Shown: positions 2,243 through 22,216 of the stretch, piece after piece
Position numbering within the stretch: the first letter of the stretch is position 1
Layout: every line of letters begins with the position of its first letter
DNA from: Segatella copri
Lineage (GTDB): Bacteria > Bacteroidota > Bacteroidia > Bacteroidales > Bacteroidaceae
NCBI RefSeq assembly: GCF_019127135.1
Contig: NZ_JAHOEA010000046.1
Span: forward strand, 1 to 27,292
Length of the DNA stretch: 27,292 bases
Reading direction: 5' to 3'
Program-made: the position numbers and the translations under genes
The notes under the pieces: generated by a model
Told to the model about the DNA's origin: nothing
Databases searched by the model: none
The model's input: only the letters and a program-made list of their open reading frames with translations

Positions 2243-2554
2243 TCATATTACAATTCCTTCCTTATTTACATTATGATAGAATAAGGTATAATGGTTCTCC
2301 TCCCATTCTTTTTTGGAGAAAAGTATAGGGTTGATGATTTCATCAATATCCCAGCCTAATTCTCTTAGTGGATAAGAATACTTATCGTAATCTTGAAGCG
2401 TAACTTTTGGTTTGTCTAGAAGAATCAATACATCCCAATCACTTCCTTCATGTTCTGTACCTCTAGCGCGGGAACCAAACAAGATAGCTTTTGCATGAGG
2501 ATCAATCTCATGCAATCTATTGTGCATTGCTTCTATGATTTGTTTCTTCTCCAT
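2243..2554 (-). CDS. Small MNT-type nucleotidyltransferase, 103 aa
   Basis: This is a minimal polymerase-beta-like nucleotidyltransferase. It has the GSx10DxD signature: G27-S28, then SDWDVLI with D39 and D41, and a third acidic position is likely in the WDIDEII strand. Such small proteins usually pair with a HEPN protein in MNT-HEPN toxin-antitoxin modules and transfer nucleotides to the toxin. Here the downstream neighbour is an unrecognised protein with no visible HEPN Rx4-6H motif. I start at the ATG at 2554. A longer reading would use a TTG at 2563. A TATTTTTG box lies just upstream. The stop TGA overlaps an ATG at 2246, which suggests translational coupling to the partner in its undamaged form. 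Confidence 0.85.
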   Translation of the reverse strand: MEKKQIIEAMHNRLHEIDPHAKAILFGSRARGTEHEGSDWDVLILLDKPKVTLQDYDKYSYPLRELGWDIDEIINPILFSKKEWEENHYTLFYHNVNKEGIVI

Positions 2555-2580
2555 ATCTATCAATATTAATATATGTGTTG

Positions 2581-2604: not shown

Positions 2605-5600
2605 TTATCCCATAGATTTTATTCTTTTCATTACCAAATCAGCGAGCACGATGGCAGATTCCTTCTCATCCCTCGGTGCATCCTTTGACTTCCATGCCAC
2701 GATGAAGCGGATTCGGGCAGCAGTTACCTTGTAGCCTTTCAACTCCCATTTGCCTAGTTTCTCTTTCATCTTGATGGAGAGCTGGGCTATGTCTCTGCCT
2801 GTTGATGGGAGACAGAGGCAATGGTCGTGGTAGGTTAGCGGCATACCGCTTCTCAAGGAAAGAATAGCGTCCTTGTGAGGCTTGGAGAAGCCCAGGTTTA
2901 CATCCTTGTGTGAGAGCTGAAGCACTATTTCGTTGGGCTCATCGTAGGCTTGGGCATCATAGAGATGCTGGGCACTGTTCAGGCTGTCGAAGAGATTGCC
3001 GTTGGTGTGGATGGTTAGTGTACGCTTGGCACGGGTCATGCCCACATAGTATCGGCGCAGTATGTCATCGGTAGGATGCTCGGGATGGGTAATGAGCATC
3101 AGTACATGATCGAACTCATGACCTTTTGCCTTGTGGATGGTGCTGACCACAATGTCTGATTTCGAGATGTCACAGAAATCTTCTACTGAAGATTCGAACA
3201 CGAACTCCCTCAGGTCGCTGTAGTATTTGGCACGATTGGTCTGTTCAAATATCTGAAGGCTGCGGCGCAGATATGGCAAAGCCTGGCTGCTGGCATACTT
3301 TTGGAATGTTTGCTGCTTGGCTGCTTCCCAAATATCATCAGGGATGATAGGGGATTTCGTCTCCTTGATACCTTGATCTATCTTCTTCAAGAAGTATCTT
3401 ACCTCTGCCAGATTCCAGAAGCGCAAGCCGTCCATTGATTGTACCAGCTTGGCCTTGATGTTATGGCTGTGAAGAAGAGCCAGCATGATGACTGCCTCTT
3501 CATTGGTCTGCGTGAGGATACTGATGGTTTCGTTCTTCTTGCGGGAAGATGCATCGGCTTCTTTTGAAACGTTACTTCCTAGTAATCGCGTAACATCTTC
3601 TAGGATAGGCTGATACATATAAACCTTTTTCTCCTGAATCTCGTAAGGATGCTTCACGATTCTTACCTCTCCATCTTCTTGACTCATGGAGATGATAGGG
3701 GTAGATTTGATTCGCTGACGGATGTTGCGGGCGAAGTCGTTGGCTGCATTCACGATGTGGCGAAGGCTGCGGTAATTCTCGGTCATCTCGATGAAACGGC
3801 TGTGTTCTGTCTGGGTCAATTCATAGAGATACTGCGAGTTGGAACCCCTAAACTCATAGATGTTCTGGTCATCATCGCCTACGGCTATCACCCTCATCTC
3901 TTCGTTGGCTTTCATCAGAGCAGAGACAAGGGCATAGTCATCCTTGCTCATGTCTTGTGCCTCGTCAATAACGAGCACGGTCTTGCTGATGCGATTGGGC
4001 TCCACTTCTCCATTGTTGATCATTTCGGCGGCTTGCTTAACCACATCTCCAGCCTCATCCAGATTGCCAACTCTGCCCAGCAGGTCGAAGCAGTAGGAAT
4101 GGAAGGTCTTGATTTCTACGAAATGGGCGGCATTGCCGATGAGTTGCATCAGGCGCTGCTTGAACTCGGTAGCGGCTGCACGTGAGAAAGTAAGCATCAG
4201 AAGTTGTTCGTGCTTTACATCTTCCAACAGCAGGAGAGAGGCAAGCTTATGTACGAGTACACGTGTCTTGCCGCTGCCAGGACCGGCAGCGACTACGATG
4301 CAGCGGGACTCGTGGTCGTCGATGATTTCCTTCTGTCGCTTGGAGAGCATTCCGAAGAGTTGCTTATACTTCGAAGGTGTTACGTTGCGCTCTATCTCAG
4401 TCTCCCGGTTGCCCTTGAAGTACTTTGAGATGAAGCGGTGGTAGTCCATCTGGAAGTAATCCTGCACATATTGCAGGGCGGCATCGTAATCCCTTACCAT
4501 CAGGTTGGCATATTCGCCCACGATGTGAATCTGCTGAATCTTCTGCTTGTAGAATTCATTGAGCATGCGGTAATCCTCCTGCTTATAGTGGAGGCGAGGT
4601 TCCTTGATGCGTTTAATAGCCATCGCATTGTAAAGCACCAGGAATCCTCCTTCCAGCTTCATGGCTCCTATCTTGGAGAGATAGAGCAAGGCTTCCTCCA
4701 CGTCTTCCAACTGCAGGGAAGAGAAGTCGGAGAAGAGTGACTGGTTGCTGGATTTCAGATCGTTCAGAAGTTCAACTACCGAGAATTGAAGAGGCTTCTC
4801 TTTTTTATTGTCTGTTGCGCCAGAGGCTTTTCCTAAACCTTTTTCTTCAGAAGAATTCTTTTCTTCAGAAGAGCTATTGTTGCTCTCTTCTGTTATAGTT
4901 TTATTTATTTCCTCAGCCAGGCTGTATAGTCTTTCGATAATGAATCGGCAAACTTCAATTCGTCTTTCGAATCGTTTGATGATGGTCTCTATATCCTTGT
5001 CTCTTGTTACGATGAGATTGCGGACGCCGTCTTCCTTCTTGTGCGTATATCCCTTTACTGCCAGGAAGTATAGCAGTGTGCGGATTTTCTTTTCGGTTGA
5101 AGTGTTGATGCCGTCGTGTACGGCATTGTCATTGAGTTGCTTGTATGTGATGTGCAGCGATTCATCCGGGATATGTTCCAGGATGTATCTTTCCAGTTTG
5201 GCGAAGTTTTCCAGCATCTGCTGAGGCTTGCGTTGCTTGTCGCTGATGTCTTGCAGATAGGCAGAGATGTCACGGGTATCGGCAAGGATGCCTTCCTGGC
5301 GCATTCTGTCAACGGAGGAGATGACGTCTCGCTTACTGAGTCCTAGGATGTCGGCGAGGTAATCGATGCGGGATTCAGCCTCGCTATCCTGTGCCTTGGC
5401 TATATGCTTCTGGGTGATGAGCGACTTGATGATGCGGATGGCATTCTGCATCTCATCTTCAGAGAACAGGGGGGATTCGGTGAGGCGCAGTCTTGCCTCG
5501 TCCATGTTCTTGACGGTGATACCTGTGGCGTAGACGTGCGGAATATTGTTGCCACGCTCTATGTATCCGCTCTGTTCTAGAGCAGATAGGGCGGTGCGGA

Positions 5601-7668
5601 CACGGGTTTCTATGTCGGATACTGAGTCATCCCAACCGGCTTGACGGGCTATCTCCAGTGCCGAACAACTTACATGTGGGCGCTGTTTGGTAAAATCTTT
5701 AATGGCTTTCCATACCTGTTGTATCTCGCTGATACTCAGTTTGGTTTGGTTGAGCAGGATGAAGTGCTTGTCCAAGTCCTCGTCGCTATAGAGTACATAG
5801 CATTTGGCATTGAGGTGTGGATCTCTTCCTGCACGTCCTGCCTCCTGTACATAGTTCTCCAGAGAGTCGGAGATGTCGTAGTGGATAACCAGCCCCACAT
5901 CGCTCTTATCTACTCCCATGCCGAAGGCGGAGGTGGCAACGATAATTCTAACCTTATCGCTCATGAAGGCATCCTGATTGTGTATCTTCTCATCGGCATC
6001 CATCTTGCCATTATAGGGCAGGGCGGTTATGCCGTCACGTGTCAGTTTTTGGGCGAGTTCCCAGGTTCGCTTGGTGCGGGATACGTAGATGATGGTAGGG
6101 CAATCAGCCTGCTCTACCAACGAGCGCAGTAGATTGTATTTGTTGCCGTCACTATCTACGTGGATAACGGAATAGTGCAGATTGGTACGTGAGGCTGATG
6201 AGGCGAAGAGCTGGAGGTCGGTGCCCAGCCAATGCTTGAAATAGTCGCAGATGTCTTGCACCACCTTCTGTTTTGCAGTGGCGGTGAAGCAAGATACGGG
6301 TATCAGGGTTTGACCATGATTGCGGGCCATAGCATCTTTGCCAAACTTACGTTCCTGATATTCCTTGATAAATTTGCCGATGTATAGGTAATCCACCCGG
6401 AAGTCTTGTCCCCATGCAGAGAAGCAGTGAGCTTCATCAATGACGAATCTCACCACATGCCGTGCCATCAGGATGCGCTCGATGGTTTTGGAGCGCAACA
6501 TCTCTGGTGCTATATATAATAAGGTGGCATCTCCGCTCTGCACTCGTTCGATGGCTAGGGAGCGGGAGATAGGGTCGAGGAGACCGTTGATGGTTACGGC
6601 ATCGGTGAAGCCGCGGTCTGCGAGGTTATCTACCTGGTCTTTCATCAATGATTGCAGAGGCGAGATAACCACGGTGAGTCCATGTATGGTTCTGCCATCC
6701 ATCAGGGCTGGTAACTGGAAGGTGAGCGACTTGCCGCCACCCGTAGGAAATATAGCCAATAATGACTTACCATCCACTGCTGCCTGCGATGCCTGTTCCT
6801 GCAGCGGTTCTCCGTCATAGGTACGGAAGGCATCATAGCCGAAGAGTTGTTTCAGGTTGTGATGAATGTCGAGCATGCGGTTGCAATACTCGCAGCCATC
6901 GGTGCATTGAGTATGGCAGAGCATATAGATGATATGTTCTACTTCGGGATAATGGCAGAGTACCCAACCTGGGGTTACAGATTGGTAATCGTCTGTGCCT
7001 ATGAGGGCCAAGGCGTATGCCAAGCCGCAAGGCGACTGGGCTGCAAGAGCCGGAATGTCGGCATGGGCGCAAATATGATTTTTGTATTCAGAAAGAATGA
7101 ATTCTGAAACGCCTATCATTGCGTCATCCTTTTCGATGGCTCCCACATACATCAGGAATCCTCTGAATTCCTCTTCATTCTGGAGCAGCAAGGTGAAGAT
7201 TTTCCTCTTCCTTTCTGATAATTGATTCCATGCAGCGATTTCATCCATCAAAAGCTCCTTGGCTTTCTCACAGTCGTTGACAGGATTGTTCATCTGCTCG
7301 CTCATCAGTTTGTCGTCCTTTACCAGATGATGGTAAGGGCGTTTGGGAAAGAGGAGTGGGGAGAGATAGAGGGTATCTATCAGTATGCCGTTGAGTTTGA
7401 GATAGCGGGCATCGTGATGAATGAGATTATGTCCGCAGATATAGTCAACCTTTCCTTCTTGCAGGAACTTGTTCAGTGCCGTCTGCGATGCTTGGTGAAA
7501 GGTGGCTCCGTCATAACGCAATGCTCCGATGTCGTGTATTTTATGGTCTTTCAGTCCCACTTCGGTATCCACGAAGGCAATATTTCTGCTTCTGGCATCT
7601 TCCTTCTTGATGTCAGAGCTTACGGTGAGATGGTTCTTCCTTTCAAAGAGGCGACTGAATATTGACAT
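2605..7668 (-). CDS. Exonuclease-like / RecQ / UvrD helicase fusion, 1687 aa
   Basis: Three enzyme modules lie in one chain. Residues 29-140 resemble a DEDD 3'-5' exonuclease: FVDTE with D34/E36, GHNLIHHD with D86, and ND at 131-132. The histidine expected five residues before the last D is an N (127). Next is a cysteine cluster at C251, C255, C259 and C262. Residues 280-650 form a RecQ-type SF2 helicase: PTGGGKS 308-314, DEAH 411-414, FTATA near 461, and QEAGRAGRD near 608. After a winged-helix-like stretch and an S/E/K linker (about 927-957), residues 1105-1560 form a UvrD-type SF1A helicase: GPGSGKT 1129-1135, DEAQ 1235-1238, GDDDQNIYEFRG, STIHKAKGHEFDHV and YVGMTRAKR. A role in DNA repair, recombination or defence is likely but unproven. 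It has its own promoter, shared almost exactly with the AAA-ATPase gene at 14127. Confidence 0.92.
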   Translation of the reverse strand: MSIFSRLFERKNHLTVSSDIKKEDARSRNIAFVDTEVGLKDHKIHDIGALRYDGATFHQASQTALNKFLQEGKVDYICGHNLIHHDARYLKLNGILIDTLYLSPLLFPKRPYHHLVKDDKLMSEQMNNPVNDCEKAKELLMDEIAAWNQLSERKRKIFTLLLQNEEEFRGFLMYVGAIEKDDAMIGVSEFILSEYKNHICAHADIPALAAQSPCGLAYALALIGTDDYQSVTPGWVLCHYPEVEHIIYMLCHTQCTDGCEYCNRMLDIHHNLKQLFGYDAFRTYDGEPLQEQASQAAVDGKSLLAIFPTGGGKSLTFQLPALMDGRTIHGLTVVISPLQSLMKDQVDNLADRGFTDAVTINGLLDPISRSLAIERVQSGDATLLYIAPEMLRSKTIERILMARHVVRFVIDEAHCFSAWGQDFRVDYLYIGKFIKEYQERKFGKDAMARNHGQTLIPVSCFTATAKQKVVQDICDYFKHWLGTDLQLFASSASRTNLHYSVIHVDSDGNKYNLLRSLVEQADCPTIIYVSRTKRTWELAQKLTRDGITALPYNGKMDADEKIHNQDAFMSDKVRIIVATSAFGMGVDKSDVGLVIHYDISDSLENYVQEAGRAGRDPHLNAKCYVLYSDEDLDKHFILLNQTKLSISEIQQVWKAIKDFTKQRPHVSCSALEIARQAGWDDSVSDIETRVRTALSALEQSGYIERGNNIPHVYATGITVKNMDEARLRLTESPLFSEDEMQNAIRIIKSLITQKHIAKAQDSEAESRIDYLADILGLSKRDVISSVDRMRQEGILADTRDISAYLQDISDKQRKPQQMLENFAKLERYILEHIPDESLHITYKQLNDNAVHDGINTSTEKKIRTLLYFLAVKGYTHKKEDGVRNLIVTRDKDIETIIKRFERRIEVCRFIIERLYSLAEEINKTITEESNNSSSEEKNSSEEKGLGKASGATDNKKEKPLQFSVVELLNDLKSSNQSLFSDFSSLQLEDVEEALLYLSKIGAMKLEGGFLVLYNAMAIKRIKEPRLHYKQEDYRMLNEFYKQKIQQIHIVGEYANLMVRDYDAALQYVQDYFQMDYHRFISKYFKGNRETEIERNVTPSKYKQLFGMLSKRQKEIIDDHESRCIVVAAGPGSGKTRVLVHKLASLLLLEDVKHEQLLMLTFSRAAATEFKQRLMQLIGNAAHFVEIKTFHSYCFDLLGRVGNLDEAGDVVKQAAEMINNGEVEPNRISKTVLVIDEAQDMSKDDYALVSALMKANEEMRVIAVGDDDQNIYEFRGSNSQYLYELTQTEHSRFIEMTENYRSLRHIVNAANDFARNIRQRIKSTPIISMSQEDGEVRIVKHPYEIQEKKVYMYQPILEDVTRLLGSNVSKEADASSRKKNETISILTQTNEEAVIMLALLHSHNIKAKLVQSMDGLRFWNLAEVRYFLKKIDQGIKETKSPIIPDDIWEAAKQQTFQKYASSQALPYLRRSLQIFEQTNRAKYYSDLREFVFESSVEDFCDISKSDIVVSTIHKAKGHEFDHVLMLITHPEHPTDDILRRYYVGMTRAKRTLTIHTNGNLFDSLNSAQHLYDAQAYDEPNEIVLQLSHKDVNLGFSKPHKDAILSLRSGMPLTYHDHCLCLPSTGRDIAQLSIKMKEKLGKWELKGYKVTAARIRFIVAWKSKDAPRDEKESAIVLADLVMKRIKSMG
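4841..4872 (-). repeat. 18-nt direct repeat in the inter-helicase linker
   Basis: TTTTCTTCAGAAGA occurs at 4841-4854 and again at 4859-4872, an 18-nt period. On the coding strand it encodes a duplicated SSEEK motif in the hydrophilic linker between the RecQ and UvrD parts. The period is a multiple of three, so gain or loss of a unit would change linker length without a frameshift. Confidence 0.7.
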
Positions 7669-7804: not shown

Positions 7805-8362
7805 TTAATATGCACCTAAAACCTTCCAGTCATCTATGAGTTTGAACAGTCGGGGCATGGCTGGCTTGTAGCTGTCGGGATAGGTGAGGGAATAGACGAA
7901 GAGTATTCTGCCACTCTTGATGAATTTATCGTAATGACTGTAGCCATCTACTCTTACTCCGTTTTCAAAGACAGGACCGCAGAGGATGAATGCCTTATTC
8001 GATGCCTGCATCGTCCTCTCTGAATGAAGCTTCTGGGCTAGAGAATCGGCACAAGCCTGGAGGGTGTTGCTATAGTTGGGGGTAACGTAACTCTCCAGGA
8101 TGATGTTGGCATGATTGGTGAATGAGAAGCGGGCATAGCCCTGGTATCCCGATACCGAAGTATCCTCCTGCTGGAAGAAGCAAGGATATTTGATAACGTA
8201 GCCGAAGTCCGGGTCATTGTATTCCTTCATGGGTGCCATCTCTACCTTGGTCTTGAAATCCGCCATCGGTGTATGCTGCTCTTTCGTAACCTCATGGTGA
8301 TAGTTGATGATGAAGTTTATCATCATCAGCAAGACAACTGCTATCAAAAAAATCTTCTTCAT
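7805..8362 (-). CDS. Membrane-anchored periplasmic protein, 185 aa
   Basis: The start at 8362 (MKKIFLIAVV) is chosen because AAGGAG lies about 8 nt upstream and because any earlier start would overlap the -7 promoter box at 8390-8397. Residues 1-18 form a signal anchor or uncleaved signal peptide (KKIFLIAVVLLMMINFII). The rest is a globular extracytoplasmic domain with DFGYVIKYPCFF, GYARFSF and IILESYVTPN motifs. I know no function for it. Its promoter carries the same tandem ATGTCA operator as the barrel gene at 9424, and the winged-helix regulator gene lies directly upstream, so it probably belongs to that regulon and may take part in sensing or in assembly of the barrel. Confidence 0.8.
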   Translation of the reverse strand: MKKIFLIAVVLLMMINFIINYHHEVTKEQHTPMADFKTKVEMAPMKEYNDPDFGYVIKYPCFFQQEDTSVSGYQGYARFSFTNHANIILESYVTPNYSNTLQACADSLAQKLHSERTMQASNKAFILCGPVFENGVRVDGYSHYDKFIKSGRILFVYSLTYPDSYKPAMPRLFKLIDDWKVLGAY

Positions 8363-8389: not shown

Positions 8390-8421
8390 CAAAGGTATGA
8401 AGAAGATGGGAAAAAGCCAAA
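8390..8421 (-). promoter_or_regulatory. Promoter of the 185-aa protein gene
   Basis: On the minus strand, TTTG (8418-8421), exactly 20 nt, then TACCTTTG (8390-8397). Transcription would start near 8383, leaving a leader of about 20 nt with the AAGGAG ribosome binding site. This rules out the longer reading that starts at 8392. Confidence 0.85.
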
Positions 8422-8430
8422 TAACAAGTA

Positions 8431-8447
8431 TGACATTTGGCTGACAT
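8431..8447 (-). promoter_or_regulatory. Tandem ATGTCA operator, copy 1
   Basis: On the minus strand, ATGTCA occurs at 8447-8442 and 8436-8431, with starts 11 nt apart. The downstream repeat ends 33 nt before the TACCTTTG box. The arrangement is identical at 9338-9354. Direct repeats one helical turn apart just upstream of the -33 element are typical of OmpR/PhoB-type winged-helix activators, and such a regulator is encoded at 8456-9229. Confidence 0.75.
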
Positions 8448-8455
8448 TTCTGAAC

Positions 8456-9229
8456 TTATCTGATTATCAGTCGATAAGACTTGCCTCTTTCCGATTCAAT
8501 CAGGAGGTTGCTATTCTGCTCAATCACCGGTTTGATACGGCGAATCAAGGTATAGAGCGTTTCGCTGGCATCCGGTTTCTTGGGCCAAAGAGCATCACAA
8601 ATCTCCTGTTTGGAGAGTTGATGATGCGTATTGTTGAAGAAGAGTTGCATCAGCTGGTGCTGCATCGGAGTAAACTTGATGGCTTGTCCGTTTTCCTGAT
8701 TGTAGAAGGAATCCTCGTCTTGAGAATAGCACATGGTGCCGAACATATCGGCCTCATGATTCCAGGGTTGTTTTCTGCGATGATAGTATAGCGATGCAAT
8801 AGCCCAAATCATAGCCATGAGGGTAAGCGTCAAAGATGTCCGCTGGTTGCTCATACTCAAAACATCTGCCATCGAACAGTTAGCATAACTTTGGATAGAA
8901 TGCTCGTTGAGAAGCATCTCTTTGCTGCTGAGCAGGTTGGCGCTATTTACCAACTGGGAATTGTTCTTGCCTCTTCTTCTGTCTTCCATCACATAGCAGA
9001 GATTACTTGTCGACTTCAGCAGGTCGATGCTGAGATGTGACCGGTAGCTCTGGATGGTATCAGGCGTAATCCATTGATATTTATTTTCCTGAAGTGTCAG
9101 AGCCAAAGCTTTGTTCATATCTTGTACAATGGCATACTGTGCCTTGCGGTAGTTGCTCACGCTGGAGAATGCCGCAGACATCACAAGGATGGCGAAGATG
9201 AGGATGGAATGATATGCTTTCAGTTTCAT
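8456..9229 (-). CDS. Membrane-anchored winged-helix transcriptional regulator, 257 aa
   Basis: Residues 7-27 and about 131-149 are hydrophobic segments that enclose a periplasmic domain of about 100 residues. The cytoplasmic C-terminus (about 180-257) looks like an OmpR/PhoB-type winged helix: FTPMQHQLMQLFF, LSKQEICDALWP, then ETLYTLIRRIKPVIE and the wing LLIESERGKSYRL. This is like ToxR/CadC one-component signalling but with the DNA-binding domain at the C-terminus. It probably senses an envelope signal and controls the two neighbours that carry tandem ATGTCA sites. The 185-aa gene follows downstream with its own promoter, and the barrel gene is divergent. The direct repeat of TGTTTAAA in its leader (9241 and 9257) might be an autoregulatory site. 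The family is clear; the signal is unknown. Confidence 0.87.
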   Translation of the reverse strand: MKLKAYHSILIFAILVMSAAFSSVSNYRKAQYAIVQDMNKALALTLQENKYQWITPDTIQSYRSHLSIDLLKSTSNLCYVMEDRRRGKNNSQLVNSANLLSSKEMLLNEHSIQSYANCSMADVLSMSNQRTSLTLTLMAMIWAIASLYYHRRKQPWNHEADMFGTMCYSQDEDSFYNQENGQAIKFTPMQHQLMQLFFNNTHHQLSKQEICDALWPKKPDASETLYTLIRRIKPVIEQNSNLLIESERGKSYRLIIR

Positions 9230-9274
9230 ATTATCTATTCTGTTTAAATGATATACTGTTTAAAGATTCAAATG

Positions 9275-9282
9275 CAAAAGTA
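9275..9282 (-). promoter_or_regulatory. Putative -7 box of the regulator gene
   Basis: On the minus strand this is TACTTTTG, matching TAnnTTTG, about 45 nt before the ATG at 9229. No TTTG is present 19-20 nt upstream. The ATGTCA pair at 9338 lies further away, in the same divergent region. Confidence 0.5.
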
Positions 9283-9337
9283 CAGAAATTCTATGAAAGA
9301 TGGTATAAAACTAGATATAATATTCGTTAATTGATAA

Positions 9338-9354
9338 ATGTCAGACTCATGTCA
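9338..9354 (+). promoter_or_regulatory. Tandem ATGTCA operator, copy 2
   Basis: ATGTCA occurs at 9338-9343 and 9349-9354, starts 11 nt apart, followed by G or T and a C-containing extension as in copy 1. The second unit ends exactly 33 nt before TACCTTTG at 9388. This spacing equals that of copy 1 to the base, which argues for one shared activator. Confidence 0.75.
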
Positions 9355-9387
9355 GTCATATTTTTCGCTTCGGTCTTCTCTTTTTGA

Positions 9388-9395
9388 TACCTTTG
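9388..9395 (+). promoter_or_regulatory. -7 box of the barrel gene
   Basis: TACCTTTG matches the Bacteroidota -7 consensus. Exactly 20 nt upstream the -33 position reads TTCG in place of TTTG. A weak -33 element next to phased activator sites fits an activated promoter. Confidence 0.7.
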
Positions 9396-9423: not shown

Positions 9424-11529
9424 ATGATGACAATGAAGAAAAGTAAATTGTTAACAACTATGGTGATGCTGTGGGCATTGATCTCTTGTTTAGAAATACG
9501 TGCCCAGGAAATCCAGAAGGTATCGAATGATTCTATAGCCTTGCAAGAGGTTGTTGTGAAGGCGGCACGAGTAGTCAACAAGGAAGATGGCAAGTTGATA
9601 TTCCCAAGCTATATTCAGAAGCAGCGTTCTTTTTCTGGTTTTTCGCTTTTAGGAAAGTTGGCTTTGCCTCATATTAGGGTTGATGAGGCAGGCCGTTCCA
9701 TTTCTGCTGCCGATCATAAGGGAGAAGTGCAGATTCGTATCAATGGCATTCTCGCCAATATGCATGACGTGCAGATGCTGGATGTAGCTTCTATTATGAG
9801 TGTAGATTATATCGACAGTCCTGGCGTAAGATATGGAAAGAATATTGCATACGTGATAGATATTCATACCCGCAGGGCTTCATCGGGTGGCAGTTTGGGC
9901 TTCAACTTGACCAATGCGCTAACTACCAAGCTCGGTTCGAACGATGTCTATGCATCCGTCAATAGGGGCAAGAGTCAATTGAATATTTTATATGAGCAGA
10001 CTTATGAGGATAATAAGGCTTCCGAATATAATGAGGATGCTCAGTATCTTCTAAATGATGGTTCTGAGTATCAGATATCTCGAAAAATTATGAATGTGGC
10101 AACTCGAAATTATGATAATACATTGCAGTTGAAGTATAATCTGGCTGATTCTGCCTTATATGTATTCCAGACAACGCTTACCACGGATTTCAGCAATCAG
10201 CCTTATACATCGAATGAGATGTGGTTTTCTGAATCTGGAAAGCCTGCGTATCCTGTTTACAGAACCAGCAAGGGTAGGGATTTTACTCCTGCTCTCGATT
10301 TGTATTTCTATCATCAGTTGGGCAAGCATCAGTCTTTGTCGGCAGATGTTTTGGGTACTTATATCCACACCAAAGGAGCCTATTATGAAGGTGAGGGCGA
10401 ACCCTATCAATATCAGGTAGATGGAAAGACCTATTCGCTCATAGCCGAGGCTATCTATGAAAACCGGTTGAAACCCTTTACTTTTTCTGCAGGAACCAAC
10501 TTGAACTGGAAATATATGGATAATCAGTATTTGGGTGATGTGGTTAGCGAGAATGGTATCCGTTCATTGGGTATTTATGGTTTTGCACAAATCAAGGGAA
10601 GTTTGGGACAATTCAAGGAAGGAACATCCCGTTTAACTTATGTGGCTGGCTTCGGGTTGAGTAATCAGTCTTATCGACAGGGAGATGAGGAATTTAGTTT
10701 TTGGCTTTGTCGTCCGAAACTCACATTGGCTTATTCCTTGACATCTTCGTTTCAGATCCGCTTGGGAAGTGAATTATCACAGCATATTTCGCAGATAGCC
10801 ATGATTTCGGATACCCGTATTCGAAAGAACAGTATGGAATGGACTGTGGGTAATCCTTCGCTTAAGCCTAACAGTAGATATGAGAACTGGGTTGCGTTCT
10901 CTTTCAGTAAACCAAGGATAAATACTGATTTTACCTTGAATTATCGCATCAATCGTCATTGTGATTTGGCGAAATACACCCGCACGGAAAATGATCAGTT
11001 TCTTTATTCCCAGACGAATCAGCCCCATTGTAATATGTTGTATCTTACGAATGATACCCGGTTTGACATTATTCCCGATCACCTTATATTATCTGTGAAT
11101 GCAGGTATTTACCGTTTTTTCAATAAGGGCGATGAGTACAGTCATTGTTATACCGCTTATAATTATAGTGGAACATTACAGGGATATTGGGGAAAATGGA
11201 CAGTGATGCTGTATGCTGATAGCGGTTGGAACTTTATGGAGGGAGAGAATATCGGGCATAATCCTCCTTCATTGGCAGCCTCAGCCAGTTATCATATAGG
11301 TGATTTCGATTTTACGCTCTATATGTATAATCCGTTTATGGCTCATCCGAAATCCTATTCTGCAGAAATCGTCAACGCTTTGCTCCACAAGCAGGTTCGT
11401 GGATATGACAATTCGATAGGTAATTTGCTCCGTATCGGTGTTGCCTGGAATATCAATCGGGGAAAGGAATATCGTAAGATACAGCGGAATATCAACAATG
11501 AGGAGAGCGAAACGGGTATCTTGAAATAG
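9424..11529 (+). CDS. Outer-membrane beta-barrel protein with plug-like domain, 701 aa
   Basis: A signal peptide (about residues 1-27, ending RAQ) is followed by the short segment ALQEVVVKAARV, typical of the start of TonB-dependent-receptor plug domains, then a plug-like region (about 45-150) with RINGILA and VDYIDSPGVRYGKN. The rest has the alternating, aromatic-rich pattern of an outer-membrane barrel. Unlike the large receptors at 17420 and 22217 it has neither an STN domain nor a carboxypeptidase-like regulatory domain. The start at 9424 gives the longest signal peptide; ATG at 9433 is an alternative. A paralogue lies at 25226. The promoter carries tandem ATGTCA sites shared with the 185-aa protein gene, so it is probably controlled by the neighbouring winged-helix regulator. 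The substrate is unknown. Confidence 0.85.
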   Translation: MMTMKKSKLLTTMVMLWALISCLEIRAQEIQKVSNDSIALQEVVVKAARVVNKEDGKLIFPSYIQKQRSFSGFSLLGKLALPHIRVDEAGRSISAADHKGEVQIRINGILANMHDVQMLDVASIMSVDYIDSPGVRYGKNIAYVIDIHTRRASSGGSLGFNLTNALTTKLGSNDVYASVNRGKSQLNILYEQTYEDNKASEYNEDAQYLLNDGSEYQISRKIMNVATRNYDNTLQLKYNLADSALYVFQTTLTTDFSNQPYTSNEMWFSESGKPAYPVYRTSKGRDFTPALDLYFYHQLGKHQSLSADVLGTYIHTKGAYYEGEGEPYQYQVDGKTYSLIAEAIYENRLKPFTFSAGTNLNWKYMDNQYLGDVVSENGIRSLGIYGFAQIKGSLGQFKEGTSRLTYVAGFGLSNQSYRQGDEEFSFWLCRPKLTLAYSLTSSFQIRLGSELSQHISQIAMISDTRIRKNSMEWTVGNPSLKPNSRYENWVAFSFSKPRINTDFTLNYRINRHCDLAKYTRTENDQFLYSQTNQPHCNMLYLTNDTRFDIIPDHLILSVNAGIYRFFNKGDEYSHCYTAYNYSGTLQGYWGKWTVMLYADSGWNFMEGENIGHNPPSLAASASYHIGDFDFTLYMYNPFMAHPKSYSAEIVNALLHKQVRGYDNSIGNLLRIGVAWNINRGKEYRKIQRNINNEESETGILK

Positions 11530-16218: not shown

Positions 16219-16698
16219 ATGAACAGAAAAAAGGACATAGAACAGTTATTCCGTCAGCATTACGCGAAGATGTACAATCTGGCCAGATGCATTCTTTCGG
16301 ATGATGACGAGAGCAAGGATGTGGTGAGCGAAGTATTCGCCCAGATTCTTGCCGATGATGTGGTTCTGGTGCCTGGGAGTGAGGATGGTTACTTGATGCG
16401 GAGCGTACGCAACCGCTGTCTCAACCTGATAGCTCATAAGAGCGTGAAGGAAAGGGTGGCGAAGCTGCTGCTGGATGATGCCGACGTGATTCTCTCAGAA
16501 GAGACTGATGAGCGACTCGACCGGCTGATGCTTCTCATCGAAGACCTGGAACCACCTATCCGACAACTCATTTTCCGTCTGCGCTATCTTCAGGAGAAAT
16601 CTTATCAGGAGGTGGCTGATGAAGTGGGAGTGAGCAAGGTGACGGTGTTTAATCATCTCTCGAAGGCGATGGACTGGATTAAGAAACAATTTAAATGA
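16219..16698 (+). CDS. ECF-type RNA polymerase sigma factor, 159 aa
   Basis: A sigma-70 region 2 (about residues 8-75: FRQHYAKMYNLARCIL, DVVSEVFAQIL, YLMRSVRNRCLNLI) is followed by region 4 (about 100-155), with the helix-turn-helix SYQEVADEVGVSKVTVFNHLSKAM. The lack of regions 1 and 3 and the length are normal for ECF factors. The stop overlaps the start of the anti-sigma gene by 4 nt, so the two are translationally coupled. With the receptor at 17420 it forms a FecI-like cell-surface signalling set. It probably directs transcription of its own operon and perhaps other targets. It is a paralogue of the factor at 20933. Confidence 0.92.
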   Translation: MNRKKDIEQLFRQHYAKMYNLARCILSDDDESKDVVSEVFAQILADDVVLVPGSEDGYLMRSVRNRCLNLIAHKSVKERVAKLLLDDADVILSEETDERLDRLMLLIEDLEPPIRQLIFRLRYLQEKSYQEVADEVGVSKVTVFNHLSKAMDWIKKQFK

Positions 16699-17402
16699 GC
16701 AAGACAATGACAAACATGAGTAAAGAAGAAAAGCGGATGATGCTCTTTGACATGCAGGAGCATCCCGAGAAATATACTGACGAGCAGGTGGAGCACCTGC
16801 TTGCCGATGAGGAAGTGAAGGAGTTCTTCCATGAACTGGCGATGGCGAGAATGGCTGGCAAGAAAGCCAATCCGAAGGAGGTGGATGTGGATGGAGCTTG
16901 GAAGGAATTTGTTCAGGCACATCACGAGGATAAGATGGCGATGGATGCCGGCAAATCCAAGAGCGTTTATCGTAACCGGGTGAAGATTGCTGCATCCATC
17001 GTCGGCATCATCTTCCTTTCGGGGGTAGCCTTGGCTGCGATTCACAATGGCTGGTTGGGGTTCCCGGCTTCTGATCAGACAGCGGATAACAAGGCTGCGA
17101 CAGAACAGCTGGCAACAACCCAGGCGCTGCCGAATGACAGTCTTCGTGCTGCAACAGCAGAGAACAAGGATTCGCTTGATATGAAGCCGGTGGTGTTTGA
17201 TGATGCTGAATTGGGAACCATTCTGGCTCAGTTATCCGGTTTCTATCATGTCAAGGTGGAGTATGTGGATGCCGGTGCCCAGCACATCCGTCTCTTCTTC
17301 AACTGGAACAAGACGAAGACTTTGGAGCAGAACCTGAAGATTTTGAATGCTTTCGACCGCATACAGATAGAGTATATTGACGGAACATTGATGGTGAAAT
17401 AA
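16695..17402 (+). CDS. Anti-sigma protein with DUF4974-like C-terminus, 235 aa
   Basis: The cytoplasmic N-terminus (about 1-95) has HPEKYTDEQVEHLLADEEVKEFF, shared with the paralogue at 21451, and should hold the sigma factor. One membrane segment lies at about 97-116. After a linker, residues 167-235 form a DUF4974/STN-like domain (FDDAELGTILAQLSGFYHVKVEY, then IRLFFNWNKTKTLEQNLKILNAF). The central FecR domain found in most Bacteroidota anti-sigma proteins (usually above 300 aa) is absent. It overlaps the sigma gene by 4 nt and is followed 17 nt later by the receptor gene. The role is inferred from context and topology. Confidence 0.87.
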   Translation: MSKTMTNMSKEEKRMMLFDMQEHPEKYTDEQVEHLLADEEVKEFFHELAMARMAGKKANPKEVDVDGAWKEFVQAHHEDKMAMDAGKSKSVYRNRVKIAASIVGIIFLSGVALAAIHNGWLGFPASDQTADNKAATEQLATTQALPNDSLRAATAENKDSLDMKPVVFDDAELGTILAQLSGFYHVKVEYVDAGAQHIRLFFNWNKTKTLEQNLKILNAFDRIQIEYIDGTLMVK

Positions 17403-17405
17403 GAT

Positions 17406-17411
17406 AGGAGG
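17406..17411 (+). promoter_or_regulatory. Strong Shine-Dalgarno site of receptor 1
   Basis: AGGAGG lies 8 nt before the ATG at 17420. Full Shine-Dalgarno matches are uncommon in Bacteroidota, and this one fixes the start choice. Confidence 0.7.
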
Positions 17412-17419
17412 ATATATTT

Positions 17420-20035
17420 ATGAGAGATTTTTGGAAACCAATGCCCGTTAGCGGCAAGCTTATCAGAGAGCTTCTTCTTCTCTTCCTGTTGCTTTGGGTT
17501 CAGCAGTCTTATGCCCAGCGCATCACCCGACAATATAATAATGTGTCGTTCTCTGCGGCGTTGAAGGATTTGAATGCCCGCCAGCATAAGTACACCATCA
17601 ACTTCGTGTATGATGAACTGGAGGATTTCAGGGTGACCAAGAGCATCAGAAACCAGAGCGTTCCCGATGCCATCATGCAGCTGATAGGATTCTATCCCAT
17701 CAGGATGACGCAGGTGGAGGATAATATTATTGTGGAGTGTACGCAGAAGACTCCCACCAAGATGATAGGTCGCATCATAGATAATAAGAATCGCCCTGTA
17801 GATTTCGCCAATGTTGCCCTGCTGAATGTCCGTGACTCTTCTTTGATTAATGGTGGCGTTACGAATGAGAACGGCCAGTTCGTGATTCCCTGCGAAGCCA
17901 CAAAGGCGATAGTAAGAGTAAGTTGCGTGGGCTATATTACGACAAGCAATACATATAATATAGGTAAGATAGGGACGATAACTCTGAAGGAGGCAACGAT
18001 GAATCTGCAGAAAATAGTAGTGAAAGGACATCGACAGCCTTTCAGAATGACTTCTGAAGGATTGGTGGCTCAGGTAGAAGGTACATCCTTGGAGAAAATG
18101 GGCTCGGCAGAAGATGTATTGAAACATCTTCCGAGAGTGATGCAGAAGAACGGTGATATAGAAGTCTTGGGAAAAGGTAAACCTTTGATTTATATCGATA
18201 ACAAGAAAATCAAGGGAACCATTGATCTCGATAGATTGAGTTCTTCTGACATCAAACATGTAGAGGTGATAACCGAGCCGGGTGCTGAATACGATGCAAC
18301 CTATCAGTCTGTCATCAGAATCAAGACGACAAGAAAGAAGGGAGAAGGACTGGGATTGACTTATCGCCAGGTCTATCAGCGCAATCATCAGGACAATCAT
18401 CGTGAAGTACTCGATTTGAATTATCGCTATCGGGGATTGGATATCTTCTCCAATTTGTATGGCGGTTTGTCTCAGGGCTATCAGGATCAGCATAATGATA
18501 ACAGACTCTACGGCAAGACGCTCATGAATATCAACGAAGACTTGATTATCAAAAACAAGAGTTACTATACCAGTGGAAGTCTTGGTTTTAATTATGTTTT
18601 CAATGATAAGCATTCCGTGGGTGCTACTTACGAGGTGAACATCAATCCTTATAGTCGGGGTGGATGGAATTCGCTGATGGATGTCTGGAAGAATGGCTCC
18701 AAGACAGAAAGCTATACAAATGATATGTATTGTCGTTTCAAAAGCCGACCTACGCAGGATATTACGGCTTATTATGCCGGACAGATAGGAAAGGTGAGCA
18801 TAGAATGGAATGGGGAAATATATCTTCGTAAAACAGGACAGACTCAATATTCTGAAGAAACAGGAATTGAGGGCGGAGATTCTCGTACGATAGAATCTGA
18901 TTTCACAGCTGATAGTTGGATGCATGCATCTAAGCTGGTACTGAGCTTTCCGGTATGGAAAGGTACTCTGAAGGTTGGTAATGAGTTTACCGAAAGTTGC
19001 CGTGCCAATCTTTATACTATAGATGAACAGGGAACTGACTTGCCAGGCAAGACGGACGACCAGGTGAAGGAAAGTAATCTTGCAGCCTTTGTTTCTTATG
19101 GATTGAGACTGAACAAGGTAGAACTGAATGCTGGCCTCAGATACGAACATGTTTCTTCCAATTACTATAATACAGGTGGTGATTATTGGAGCGAGGAGAA
19201 TAAGGATTATTTCGTACCCGACCAGAGTCGTAAGTACGACCATTTCTTTCCGAATGTGTCCTTGACCTTTCCTGTCGGGAATGTGAAAATGAATATGGTT
19301 TATAAGGTGACGGTGAGTCGTCCTTCCTATAGTCAGTTAAGTAGTAACGTGCAATATAATAGTCGCTATTATTATCAGGGTGGAAATCCATTGCTCAAGT
19401 CAAGCTTCGAACATGGCATAGGGATTAATCTGGGATATAAATGGTTCCAGTTTTTTGCCAACTGGCGTTATCTTGTAGATCCTTGCTATCAGGTGATAGA
19501 ACCGTATCATGACAATGAGTTAATCAGTATGTACACCTTTCGTAATTTGAATCATACTCAGGTTTGTTACGTGGGACTGACGGCATCGCCAACGATAGGA
19601 TGGTGGCATCCTACGTTGGACGCTGGTATGAGAAAGCAGTTCCTGACCATTGGTGGTAAGGCATACAGCAAACCGATATTCATGGGCTCTTTCAATAATG
19701 CGTTTTCACTACCATGCGGTTGGACGCTTAATCTTGATATGAGTTGGAACACGCAGGGCCATTCTGCGCTTCCGCTTTATATGGCACAAGGAGGAGTGGA
19801 CGTCTCTTTGCGTAGAAGTTTTCTTCACGACCGCCTGAATGTCATTTTGGCGGGCAATGACCTTTTTGCGACGATGCGCAATTCCACAAGATTGGTATAT
19901 GGTACCAGCGATATCTATACCAGAAAATATACGGATACCCGAATGTTCATGTGCTCATTCAGCTATAAGTTTAATGTTAGTAGAAGCAAGTACAAGGGTA
20001 CGGGTGCCGGTAATACTGAAAAGAGCCGCTTGTAG
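17420..20035 (+). CDS. TonB-dependent receptor-like protein with STN domain, 871 aa
   Basis: Signal peptide to about residue 32 (QSYA|QR). An STN (secretin/TonB N-terminal) domain covers about 33-107. A carboxypeptidase-like regulatory beta-sandwich follows at about 114-190 (MIGRIIDNKNRPVDFANVAL). A plug-like region starts near 198 and contains GKGKPLIYIDNKKI and EVITEPGAEYDA, and the remainder is an outer-membrane barrel of the OMP_b-brl_3 kind. The protein ends in SKYKGTGAGNTEKSRL, a hydrophilic tail beyond the last strand. As third gene of the sigma operon it should act as the FecA-like sensor: ligand binding moves the STN domain, which contacts the anti-sigma protein. No SusD partner is present, so the ligand is open. 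Confidence 0.9.
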   Translation: MRDFWKPMPVSGKLIRELLLLFLLLWVQQSYAQRITRQYNNVSFSAALKDLNARQHKYTINFVYDELEDFRVTKSIRNQSVPDAIMQLIGFYPIRMTQVEDNIIVECTQKTPTKMIGRIIDNKNRPVDFANVALLNVRDSSLINGGVTNENGQFVIPCEATKAIVRVSCVGYITTSNTYNIGKIGTITLKEATMNLQKIVVKGHRQPFRMTSEGLVAQVEGTSLEKMGSAEDVLKHLPRVMQKNGDIEVLGKGKPLIYIDNKKIKGTIDLDRLSSSDIKHVEVITEPGAEYDATYQSVIRIKTTRKKGEGLGLTYRQVYQRNHQDNHREVLDLNYRYRGLDIFSNLYGGLSQGYQDQHNDNRLYGKTLMNINEDLIIKNKSYYTSGSLGFNYVFNDKHSVGATYEVNINPYSRGGWNSLMDVWKNGSKTESYTNDMYCRFKSRPTQDITAYYAGQIGKVSIEWNGEIYLRKTGQTQYSEETGIEGGDSRTIESDFTADSWMHASKLVLSFPVWKGTLKVGNEFTESCRANLYTIDEQGTDLPGKTDDQVKESNLAAFVSYGLRLNKVELNAGLRYEHVSSNYYNTGGDYWSEENKDYFVPDQSRKYDHFFPNVSLTFPVGNVKMNMVYKVTVSRPSYSQLSSNVQYNSRYYYQGGNPLLKSSFEHGIGINLGYKWFQFFANWRYLVDPCYQVIEPYHDNELISMYTFRNLNHTQVCYVGLTASPTIGWWHPTLDAGMRKQFLTIGGKAYSKPIFMGSFNNAFSLPCGWTLNLDMSWNTQGHSALPLYMAQGGVDVSLRRSFLHDRLNVILAGNDLFATMRNSTRLVYGTSDIYTRKYTDTRMFMCSFSYKFNVSRSKYKGTGAGNTEKSRL
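17732..17935 (+). repeat. Near-identical segment shared by the two receptors, copy 1
   Basis: These 204 nt match 22502-22705 with 12 differences by my count (about 94% identity) and no gap, while flanking sequence in both genes is much more diverged. The segment encodes most of the carboxypeptidase-like regulatory domain. Confidence 0.85.
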
Positions 20036-20139: not shown

Positions 20140-20469
20140 TTATACACATATTTCTAAATCCTGATGAACTACATTTAATATCGGAGCTTGGAGAGCATCC
20201 TCAATAGATACAAGAGTGTCTATTGTAAAATTATGTGTTCCTCGCATCCATTTGCTTATTTCCGCTTCCCGTTTTCCGAGTAGAAGGGCTAGGTCTTTCT
20301 GCTTCATCCCTTTAGAAACCAGAATGTCATGTATCCTATCTACGATTTGGAAAGACAAATCTACAGACTTGCGAATCTCAGGATCAACATGTTTGCGGCG
20401 TTCTTCTAAAATCTTACTTCTTCTGAGCATGTGCTCTAAGCGGTTTTTATCTCTACTTCGTTCTCTCAT
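20140..20469 (-). CDS. XRE-family helix-turn-helix protein, 109 aa
   Basis: The C-terminal half is a Cro/C1-type DNA-binding domain: GMKQKDLALLLGKREAEISKWM followed by FTIDTLVSIEDAL. The N-terminal half is charged and helical, with many R and K residues. There is no membrane segment. Its start overlaps the end of the nucleotidyltransferase gene by 17 nt, so translation is coupled. In size and arrangement it resembles HigA-like antitoxins, but the upstream partner is a nucleotidyltransferase, not a RelE-type toxin. It may repress the promoter at 20775. Confidence 0.87.
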   Translation of the reverse strand: MRERSRDKNRLEHMLRRSKILEERRKHVDPEIRKSVDLSFQIVDRIHDILVSKGMKQKDLALLLGKREAEISKWMRGTHNFTIDTLVSIEDALQAPILNVVHQDLEICV

Positions 20470-20749
20470 AAACTAAGATTTTATCACGTTCTATTGATTC
20501 CTGTGCAAAAGGAAGTAAGGTTCCTTCTGATACCAAATCAACTTTTCTACCTAAGAGTTCTTCCAAATCACTCCACATGCCGAAGAATTTTAAACCAATA
20601 GGTTTGCTCTTGTCCAAAGAAACCATAATATCGACATCGCTATCCTTCGTTTCTTCCCCTCTGGAGAAAGAACCGAACAGCCAGACTTTCAATACGGGTT
20701 GGGTGCTGAAATAATGGCGTAAAGCTTCTATGATGGCTCGTTTACCCAT
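20453..20749 (-). CDS. MNT-type nucleotidyltransferase, 98 aa
   Basis: A minimal nucleotidyltransferase with the complete GSx10DxD motif: GSFSRG with G26-S27, then SDVDIMV with D38 and D40; a third acidic residue is likely in GRKVDLV. The start at 20749 (MGKRAII) is chosen because an earlier ATG at 20785 would lie upstream of the -7 box at 20775-20782. It is first in a two-gene unit and overlaps the XRE gene by 17 nt. Proteins of this kind act in toxin-antitoxin systems by nucleotidylating a partner or tRNA. Which gene is the toxin cannot be read from sequence. It is a distant relative of the nucleotidyltransferase at 2243. Confidence 0.87.
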   Translation of the reverse strand: MGKRAIIEALRHYFSTQPVLKVWLFGSFSRGEETKDSDVDIMVSLDKSKPIGLKFFGMWSDLEELLGRKVDLVSEGTLLPFAQESIERDKILVYERTK

Positions 20750-20774
20750 AATATAATGATGTTGTTTCTTGCTG

Positions 20775-20782
20775 CAAAGATA
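20775..20782 (-). promoter_or_regulatory. -7 box of the nucleotidyltransferase/XRE pair
   Basis: On the minus strand this is TATCTTTG, matching TAnnTTTG, 26 nt upstream of the ATG at 20749. The -33 element is weak. It lies back to back with the plus-strand box at 20825. Confidence 0.6.
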
Positions 20783-20824
20783 CACTTTTTATTCGAAAGA
20801 GCAAGCTTTTTTCTAGTTTTTTAT

Positions 20825-20832: not shown

Positions 20833-20932
20833 CATAGGTTTTTCGAAAAAAGTAGAAGATTTCTTCATTTTAGGGGTAATTGATTTCAGGAAAGCTTGTA
20901 TATAAGAGTAGAAACAAGAAGAAAATGACGTG

Positions 20933-21421
20933 ATGACAGAAGAAAATGAACAGCGGATGGAACGGCTGTTCCACGACCATTACGAGCAGATGTATCGCTT
21001 CGCCTTTGCCTTGCTCCATGATAATGAGGAGGCGAGGGATGTGGTGAGCGATGTGTTCTCCAGATTGTGGGATAAACAGCTGGTTCCAGACCGGGCTTAC
21101 CTGATGCGAAGCGTGAAGAATGCCTGCATCAATCTCATAGCCAGAAAGAAGAGAGATGAACGACTGAAACGGCTTCTCCCTCTCTCGGAAGAGAAATTGA
21201 CGGAGGAAGAACCTTCTCGTCTGGAAGAGCGATGGCAGGCTGCCGTAGATTGCATCGACCATGACCTGACCGACCAGACAGCTTCCGTCATCCGATTGTG
21301 CTATCGGGAAGGAATGTCGTATAAGGATACGGCGGAGGAACTGGGCATCAGCGTTTCGGCAGTGAACAAGCATATCGTGAAAGGTTTGCGAACGCTCAGA
21401 GAAAAGTTGAAAGGAAAATAA
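20933..21421 (+). CDS. ECF-type RNA polymerase sigma factor, 162 aa
   Basis: Region 2 (about 10-72) has FHDHYEQMYRFAFALL, DVVSDVFSRLW and YLMRSVKNACINLIA. Region 4 (about 100-158) has CYREGMSYKDTAEELGISVSAVNKHIVKGL, a clear helix-turn-helix. I start at ATG 20933; a GTG directly before it (20930) is an alternative. It is the first gene of the second sigma/anti-sigma/receptor operon. Region 2 is clearly similar to that of the factor at 16219, but region 4 is more diverged, so the two may recognise different promoters. The anti-sigma gene follows after 29 nt. Confidence 0.92.
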   Translation: MTEENEQRMERLFHDHYEQMYRFAFALLHDNEEARDVVSDVFSRLWDKQLVPDRAYLMRSVKNACINLIARKKRDERLKRLLPLSEEKLTEEEPSRLEERWQAAVDCIDHDLTDQTASVIRLCYREGMSYKDTAEELGISVSAVNKHIVKGLRTLREKLKGK

Positions 21422-21450
21422 TAACCCTAAAATGAAGAAAGGAAAAGAAA

Positions 21451-22215: not shown

Positions 22216-22216
22216 G

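Follow-up and report, generated by a model that had tools for sequence, protein, structure and literature searches.

RESULTS

A regulator gene lies between two promoters with the same phased repeats

The window, by which we mean the whole 27,292-nt stretch of Segatella copri DNA analyzed here, contains the gene for a membrane-spanning regulator, denoted REG, that sits between two promoters. One of these precedes the gene for an outer membrane beta-barrel protein (BAR), and the other precedes the gene for a 185-aa protein (P19). The features of the locus are as follows.

8456..9229, - strand: REG, gene for a 257-aa membrane-spanning regulator (open reading frame; Trans_reg_C, E = 2.6e-10)
9424..11529, + strand: BAR, gene for a 701-aa outer membrane beta-barrel protein, predicted target 1 (open reading frame)
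7805..8362, - strand: P19, gene for a 185-aa protein, predicted target 2 (open reading frame with ATG start)
9338..9354, + strand: candidate operator of the barrel gene, ATGTCA-N5-ATGTCA, ATGTCAGACTCATGTCA; core TGTCAG-N5-TGTCAG at 9339-9355 (sequence, pattern search, conservation)
8431..8447, - strand: candidate operator of the 185-aa-protein gene, ATGTCA-N5-ATGTCA, ATGTCAGCCAAATGTCA; core TGTCAG-N5-TGTCAT at 8446-8430 (sequence, pattern search, conservation)
9388..9395, + strand: -7 box of the barrel gene, TACCTTTG (sequence; TAnnTTTG consensus)
8390..8397, - strand: -7 box of the 185-aa-protein gene, TACCTTTG (sequence)
9361..9367, + strand: TTTTTCG, a T-rich stretch at the -33 place just downstream of the barrel operator (sequence; recurs in the operator alignment)
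9275..9282, - strand: TACTTTTG, putative -7 box for the promoter of REG itself (sequence alone)

The barrel promoter reads, on the + strand, ATGTCAGACTCATGTCA, 33 nt, TACCTTTG, and then the ATG at 9424; on the - strand, the promoter of the 185-aa-protein gene reads ATGTCAGCCAAATGTCA, 33 nt, TACCTTTG, and then the ATG at 8362. A preliminary description of this DNA had reported ATGTCA pairs on an 11-nt phase, 33 nt before TACCTTTG, at both promoters, and direct reading together with a pattern search found this to be exact to the base, with zero mismatches in either repeat. The same description had recognized an OmpR-type winged helix in the gene between the promoters, which agrees with the C-terminal Trans_reg_C domain (PF00486) listed above. 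The half-site it proposed holds in part: ATGTCA is present in both promoters, but the unit conserved by comparison is TGTCAG, to which the second copy at the 185-aa-protein gene, TGTCAT, has one mismatch. Overlooked at that stage were further half-sites, the likeness to the Pho box, and targets unlinked to the regulator. The window promoters have two half-sites each, and the -33 place is occupied by TTATTTGG before the 185-aa-protein gene and by TTTTTCG before the barrel gene. Reading of the candidate regulator promoter (TACTTTTG) revealed no operator in its own orientation.

Shuffled versions of the window contained on average 4.08 matches when up to two mismatches were allowed, so that a loose match inside the window carries no meaning. 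In the nearest genome compared (G001; 3.9 Mb), the exact repeat occurs only twice, flanking the regulator gene, and the relaxed pattern TGTC-N7-TGTC...TAnnTTTG returned the same two sites and none in addition. Over six genomes, the relaxed pattern yielded eight sites versus two for the reversed pattern. The whole-genome count and the reversed-pattern controls rule out chance repeats. The window regulator is 99% identical to the regulator on S. copri contig NZ_NMPZ01000018.

Elsewhere in the window, positions 25226-27241 (+) encode a second barrel-like protein of 671 aa that shows weak kinship to BAR relatives (19-25% by tblastn); no TGTCAG array was noticed before this gene. Two consecutive ECF sigma/FecR-like/receptor-like modules occupy 16219-20035 and 20930-24787 (+), and their two receptors share stretches that are near-identical by eye. 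A 1,687-aa protein encoded at 2605-7668 (-) reads by eye as a single chain that combines an exonuclease with helicases of the RecQ and UvrD types. Small nucleotidyltransferase-like genes were seen by eye at 2243-2563 (-) and 20140-20785 (-), one of them beside an XRE-type HTH gene, resembling MNT-type partner pairs.

The repeats form conserved arrays at regulator loci

The loci of the window and of the best 80 of 158 relatives, of which 3 encode a regulator 99% identical to that of the window and 77 one that is 36-48% identical, were searched from the regulator outward, with up to 2 mismatches, a gap of 28-38 nt, and one mismatch in the -7 box allowed. Of the 81 loci, 74 have an array that departs from the pattern at no more than one base and is separated from a -7-like box by 32-33 nt. 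The preliminary description had named as a refutation test orthologous promoters that keep the -7 box without the repeats; as these loci show, the repeats are mostly retained, not merely the -7 box. Under the same rules, all 81 loci together held 90 sites in the real sequence versus 5 in one mononucleotide shuffle. This search found no operator at 7 of the 81 loci (L011, L022, L028, L041, L054, L058, and L063); of these, L041 is cut off by the contig edge, and an operator lies 21 kb away in the genome to which L063 belongs. At two further loci of about 9.1 kb, L027 and L029, a perfect operator lies about 3.4 kb past the regulator gene, behind oppositely oriented genes.

The operator consensus is TGTCAG-N5-TGTCAG-N32/33-TAnnTTTG, often with extra half-sites on the 11-nt phase. 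Most operators were exact in a mismatch-tolerant search, whereas the spacers vary. Among the 189 operators from all loci that are non-redundant by exact sequence, the hexamer exactly 11 nt upstream of the pair matches at least 4 of the 6 TGTCAG bases in 109, and it is a perfect TGTCAG in 49; at the seven neighboring control offsets, at most 11 of the 189 reach 4 of 6 bases. A hexamer 22 nt upstream of the pair reaches this level in 47 of the 189.

Operator and regulator co-occur across genomes

The preliminary description had proposed a scan of related genomes for the repeats. Made without using the regulator, such a scan detected the exact operator and -7 box in 76 of 399 Bacteroidaceae genomes, belonging to 14 of 30 genera, and the reversed-pattern control in 0 of the 399. 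With the regulator called at E <= 1e-25, 71 of these 399 genomes contain both, 26 the regulator only, 5 the operator only, and 297 neither; thus, 71 of the 76 operator genomes encode the regulator versus 26 of the 323 others, which favors the link of the repeats to the regulator that had been suggested from the window. In a set of 100 relatives spanning the order, which overlaps in part with the 399, the operator is present in 28 genomes, each belonging to the same genus as the window, and was found in none of the 40 genomes of other families; at E <= 1e-30, 26 genomes of this set contain both, 5 the regulator only, 2 the operator only, and 67 neither. By genus, as read off the tables by hand, 17 of the 30 have the regulator strongly; 14 of these also have the exact operator, which none of the other 13 has. 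Few candidates were scored in each genome when the regulator profiles were searched, so that paralogue counts are lower bounds.

The two discordant classes were inspected. Inspection of 20 regulator-only genomes (of 26) revealed, in 19, an array near the regulator gene that deviates at 0-2 positions and stands 32-33 nt from a -7 box; in some of the 19, the box itself has one mismatch. These near-match arrays lie mostly between the regulator gene and a barrel, TMEM260-like, or P19 gene; at the remaining locus, L258, no array was found near the regulator. A looser search over these 20 loci added one further, off-spacing site in total. The operator-only genomes are G014 (locus L238) and G039 (L239) from the set of 100 and G123 (L155), G131 (L175), G200 (L220), G451 (L173), and G467 (L171) from the 399, of which G123 is 99% complete. 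A six-frame search of the operator surroundings in these seven genomes found no regulator piece. Loss of the regulator at a contig end was considered for G014 and G039 and rejected, given that 853 and 523 bases, respectively, lie upstream of their operators and contain no regulator piece. In the seven genomes, the regulator may be in the missing part or may have been lost.

The operators precede a short list of envelope genes, many away from the regulator

In a mixed set of 103 non-redundant operators, the downstream gene encodes a barrel in 41 cases, a TMEM260-like protein in 34, P19 in 22, and another protein in 5, and 1 operator has no ORF after it; 97 of the 103 operators thus stand before genes of the three named families. 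These labels come from profiles built on the same loci, with Pfam run on part of them, and PF11028 was confirmed on six TMEM260-like proteins. Two ECF sigma factors and a protein with weak likeness to thioredoxins are among the five other targets.

The 91 sites found operator first, corresponding to 90 loci and counted apart from the sites of G001, G005, G011, G025, and G059 and loci L233-L239, precede barrel genes (46), TMEM260-like genes (13), P19 genes (10), barrel-like genes (4), other genes (16), or no gene (2). Hence, 69 of the 91 stand before barrel, TMEM260-like, or P19 genes, with 4 more before barrel-like genes, and 18 precede other genes or none. Pfam covered 13 of these 18 sites (all but L173, L197, and L220, and L175 and L223, where no ORF is in range) and identified five OMP_b-brl_3 barrels, three thioredoxin-like proteins, and two M60 peptidases among the other targets; it gave no match for the L169 target and one of the two L209 targets. 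The two L209 sites, which have a 34-nt gap, may be chance occurrences. The recurrence of barrel and 185-aa anchored proteins behind operators bears out the target families named from the window, and the TMEM260-like family is added to them.

Counts of co-occurrence ignore shared descent, and inheritance of the locus as a block would keep the gene and the operator together. Block inheritance could therefore explain the co-occurrence, and the main answer to it is the unlinked targets. A regulator gene lies within 600 bp at 50 of the 91 operator-first sites and is absent within that distance at 41; of these unlinked sites, 22 precede barrel (7), TMEM260-like (7), or P19 (8) genes. For example, in one other genus, all five genomes with two operators (G212, G322, G335, G458, and G480) combine an operator between the regulator and barrel genes with an unlinked P19 operator, and in G335, the two share a single 4.03-Mb contig, with 1.86 Mb between them. 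In G033, the regulator gene has no adjacent operator, and three operators elsewhere precede two barrel genes and a TMEM260-like gene. At six loci (L010, L032, L033, L035, L069, and L082), the barrel and P19 genes follow in a row behind the regulator; in the window, this pair is split, with an operator before each half. In an S. copri strain with no barrel gene at the locus (L005/G486), the P19 operator is the only one found, both at the locus and genome-wide.

These data also bear on an alternative explanation, namely, that the repeats are a linked feature of the promoters, passed on together with the locus and lacking a trans-acting partner. Many operators do stand at the regulator locus, where shared descent alone could keep both together. 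However, the operators are mostly exact while the spacers differ, 41 of the 91 operator-first sites have no REG gene nearby, 22 of these standing before genes of the three families, and the exact operator is confined to genera with a strong REG match (14 of 17 versus 0 of 13). We regard an inherited feature without a partner as exceedingly improbable.

Other genes near operators were recorded as well. At two loci (L081:6604 and L099:2549), the gene after a TGTCAG array encodes an ECF sigma factor, and at three more (L018:6534-7666, L050:6556-7691, and L056:1643-2784), an ECF sigma gene accompanied by one for an anti-sigma-like membrane protein lies downstream of P19 (sigma factor by Pfam for L018, anti-sigma-like gene by eye); the regulon may feed a sigma cascade. 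Thioredoxin-like envelope proteins are encoded behind operators at L154:5907-6956, L185:5212-6261, L224:3191-5062, and, with a weak match, L032:921-3062, and M60 (enhancin-like) peptidases with F5/8 domains are encoded behind operators at L156:7118-9268 and L157:7071-9098. At three loci of one genus (L162:7078, L187, and L190), a similar small membrane ORF of 99-113 aa is the first gene after the operator, before a TMEM260-like gene.

REG is predicted to be a membrane-spanning winged-helix protein

The predicted topology of REG consists of a first transmembrane helix (about aa 5-27), a periplasmic part (about aa 28-129), a second transmembrane helix (about aa 130-153), and a winged helix at aa 181-254 of 257. 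The AlphaFold2 model (mean pLDDT, 91.4) has the same order, with a helix at 5-48, a small periplasmic part made of two short helices, two strands, and one helix, then a helix at 130-153 and the winged helix. The first transmembrane helix alone passes a hydropathy threshold of 1.5; the second was assigned from the model and from reading of the sequence. Trans_reg_C is present in 49 of 49 aligned REG relatives, and mean identity to the window protein is 68% in the winged helix versus 33-37% in residues 31-160. Foldseek searches matched the DNA-binding domains of SaeR, PhoP, and PhoB and also those of TcpP and ToxR. By its Trans_reg_C domain and fold, REG is an OmpR/PhoB-type winged-helix protein, and as a single chain uniting a DNA-binding domain with one or more membrane helices, it is a transmembrane transcription regulator (TTR). 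The domain search found no kinase or receiver domain in the 49 proteins. A periplasmic cysteine near the second membrane helix, C118, is retained in 39 of the 49, and our guess is that it might be a sensing residue.

The Pho box, like the arrays, is built on an 11-nt phase. An alternative to REG as the binder is that the repeats are Pho boxes bound by PhoB and that the REG gene is a bystander. The PhoB half-site, TGTCA(T/C), resembles the array unit, and PhoB makes base-specific contacts through T194, V197, R201, and R219 (PMC3264566). In an alignment with Escherichia coli PhoB, REG proteins have T224 (48 of 49), T227 (49 of 49), R231 (49 of 49), and R248 (48 of 49) at these positions, so that three of the four contacts are kept (T194 as T224, R201 as R231, and R219 as R248). 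The corresponding residues of KdpE, whose half-site is different, are Y, I, H, and T. Judged by these residues, the winged helix of REG looks fit to read the TGTCA sequence of the promoters; the contact residues may be common across this large family, and the link is thus supported rather than proven.

REG shares with PhoB the winged-helix family, the TGTCA half-sites, and these contact residues, but REG itself is not a PhoB: it has no receiver domain (0 of 49 proteins) and falls far below the NF053854/TIGR02154 cutoffs for PhoB, scoring 15.3 of 270 bits (Bacteroidetes PhoB) and 17.4 of 296.2 bits, and its targets are different. As for PhoB as the binder, a PhoB above the cutoff is encoded in the nearest genome, G001, and is somewhat more common in operator genomes. 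However, in the set of 100, PhoB above the cutoff occurs in 19 of the 28 genomes with the operator and 22 of the 72 without it, compared with 26 and 5, respectively, for REG. Nine operator genomes, including G004 and G044 (both 99% complete), have no PhoB above the cutoff, although weaker PhoB-profile matches occur in all 100. Among those targets that were identified, which are part of the total, we noticed no gene for phosphate uptake, and the operator lies within 600 bp of a REG gene at the 50 of 91 sites noted above, all found without using REG. Co-distribution and targets fit PhoB much worse than REG, and binding by PhoB appears very unlikely.

Properties of the target proteins

Among 29 aligned BAR-type proteins, 3 match OMP_b-brl_3 and 1 matches TonB_dep_Rec_b-barrel, and the window BAR matches neither; a plug domain was found in 0 of the 29 at E <= 0.01. 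TonB-dependent receptors combine a plug, a barrel, and a TonB box. A profile search with BAR for solved relatives gave a single match at E = 0.87 and none that was convincing. P19 has no Pfam match and no sequence-level match to the PsbP group and was therefore placed by fold instead: it has an N-terminal hydrophobic anchor and a PsbP/DcrB/Mog1-like fold. In Foldseek searches with its AlphaFold2 model (mean pLDDT, 88.3), the best match was CyanoP (E = 6.1e-6), and DcrB was also found (E = 8.7e-4), with TM-scores of about 0.4-0.6.

The arrays abut the -33 region

Of the 189 operators, 110 have 32 nt between the array and the -7 box, 75 have 33 nt, and 4 have 30, 31, or 34 nt, and a T-rich stretch at the place of the -33 element recurs downstream of the array in the operator alignment. 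OmpR-family activators have sites that abut the -33 region or lie upstream of the promoter elements. Because the arrays abut the -33 region in the same manner, REG is most likely an activator. The tethered protein could instead bind the arrays and repress the promoters until a signal releases it; repression would give identical comparative data, and some membrane-tethered regulators act as repressors. However, the array does not overlap the -33 and -7 elements but precedes them, at 32-33 nt in 185 of the 189 operators when 30-35 nt was allowed; activators of this DNA-binding family usually bind there, and we consider repression unlikely. As to the promoter elements themselves, TAnnTTTG at -7 with TTTG near -33 is the promoter consensus (sigma-ABfr) (PMC7366714).

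DISCUSSION

From the comparison of these sequences, REG is probably an activator that is tethered to the membrane and controls a small envelope regulon through TGTCAG arrays. REG would be a one-component signal protein anchored by two helices in the inner membrane, with a small periplasmic region that senses an envelope signal. Its cytoplasmic C-terminal winged helix would bind TGTCAG half-sites arranged head to tail, at least two of them, on an 11-nt phase. From an array placed 32-33 nt upstream of TAnnTTTG, abutting the -33 region of what would be housekeeping promoters, REG would most likely activate envelope genes. In the window, the predicted targets are the barrel and the PsbP/DcrB-like anchored protein; in relatives, a TMEM260-like glycosyltransferase would be added.

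One-component regulators tethered to the membrane are common and form a known class. ToxR and CadC have an N-terminal winged helix, one membrane helix, and a C-terminal periplasmic domain. REG is not of this type: its winged helix, at aa 181-254 of 257, is C-terminal behind two membrane helices instead of N-terminal before one. In Bacteroides hybrid two-component systems, the binding domain is likewise C-terminal, but it is AraC-type, whereas that of REG is OmpR-type; with neither a histidine kinase nor a receiver domain found in REG, assignment to these systems was rejected. Common ground with both groups is found in the literature on TTRs, a class enriched in Bacteroidia: TTRs such as ToxR and CadC act from the membrane with a DNA-binding domain and membrane helices in one protein, as REG would, and Bacteroides hybrid two-component systems join a membrane sensor and a DNA-binding domain in one chain (PMC10269533).

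The proposed system can also be set beside envelope stress responses in general. The Cpx, Rcs, and sigma-E systems are envelope stress systems with an inner membrane sensor, and like the system proposed here, they control outer membrane and periplasmic proteins; the REG path differs in having no phosphorelay or anti-sigma factor, with a direct path proposed from the membrane to the promoter. In open-licence PubMed Central articles searched with narrow terms, we found no description of the REG family, its operator, or its regulon, which suggests an envelope-control system not previously described. What is likely to be new, on the present sequence comparisons, is the domain order reversed relative to ToxR, the Pho-box-like arrays, and an envelope regulon spanning at least 14 genera.

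A broader reading, put forward tentatively, is that the Bacteroidaceae possess their own envelope homeostasis system, in which the tethered REG might read the periplasm and directly switch on the barrel, the DcrB/PsbP-like protein, and the TMEM260-like (protein O-mannosyltransferase-like) enzyme, joined in some genomes by thioredoxin-like proteins and an ECF sigma factor. To our knowledge, the ways in which these very abundant bacteria sense and adjust their envelope are poorly mapped. If the broader reading is true, surface protein glycosylation or outer membrane assembly would be coupled to transcription without a phosphorelay. The barrel, P19, and bacterial TMEM260-like families, all uncharacterized, are placed in one likely regulon, which provides a functional handle on each. 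With a regulator, a precise operator, and a short target list recurring in at least 14 genera, the circuit is open to direct test.
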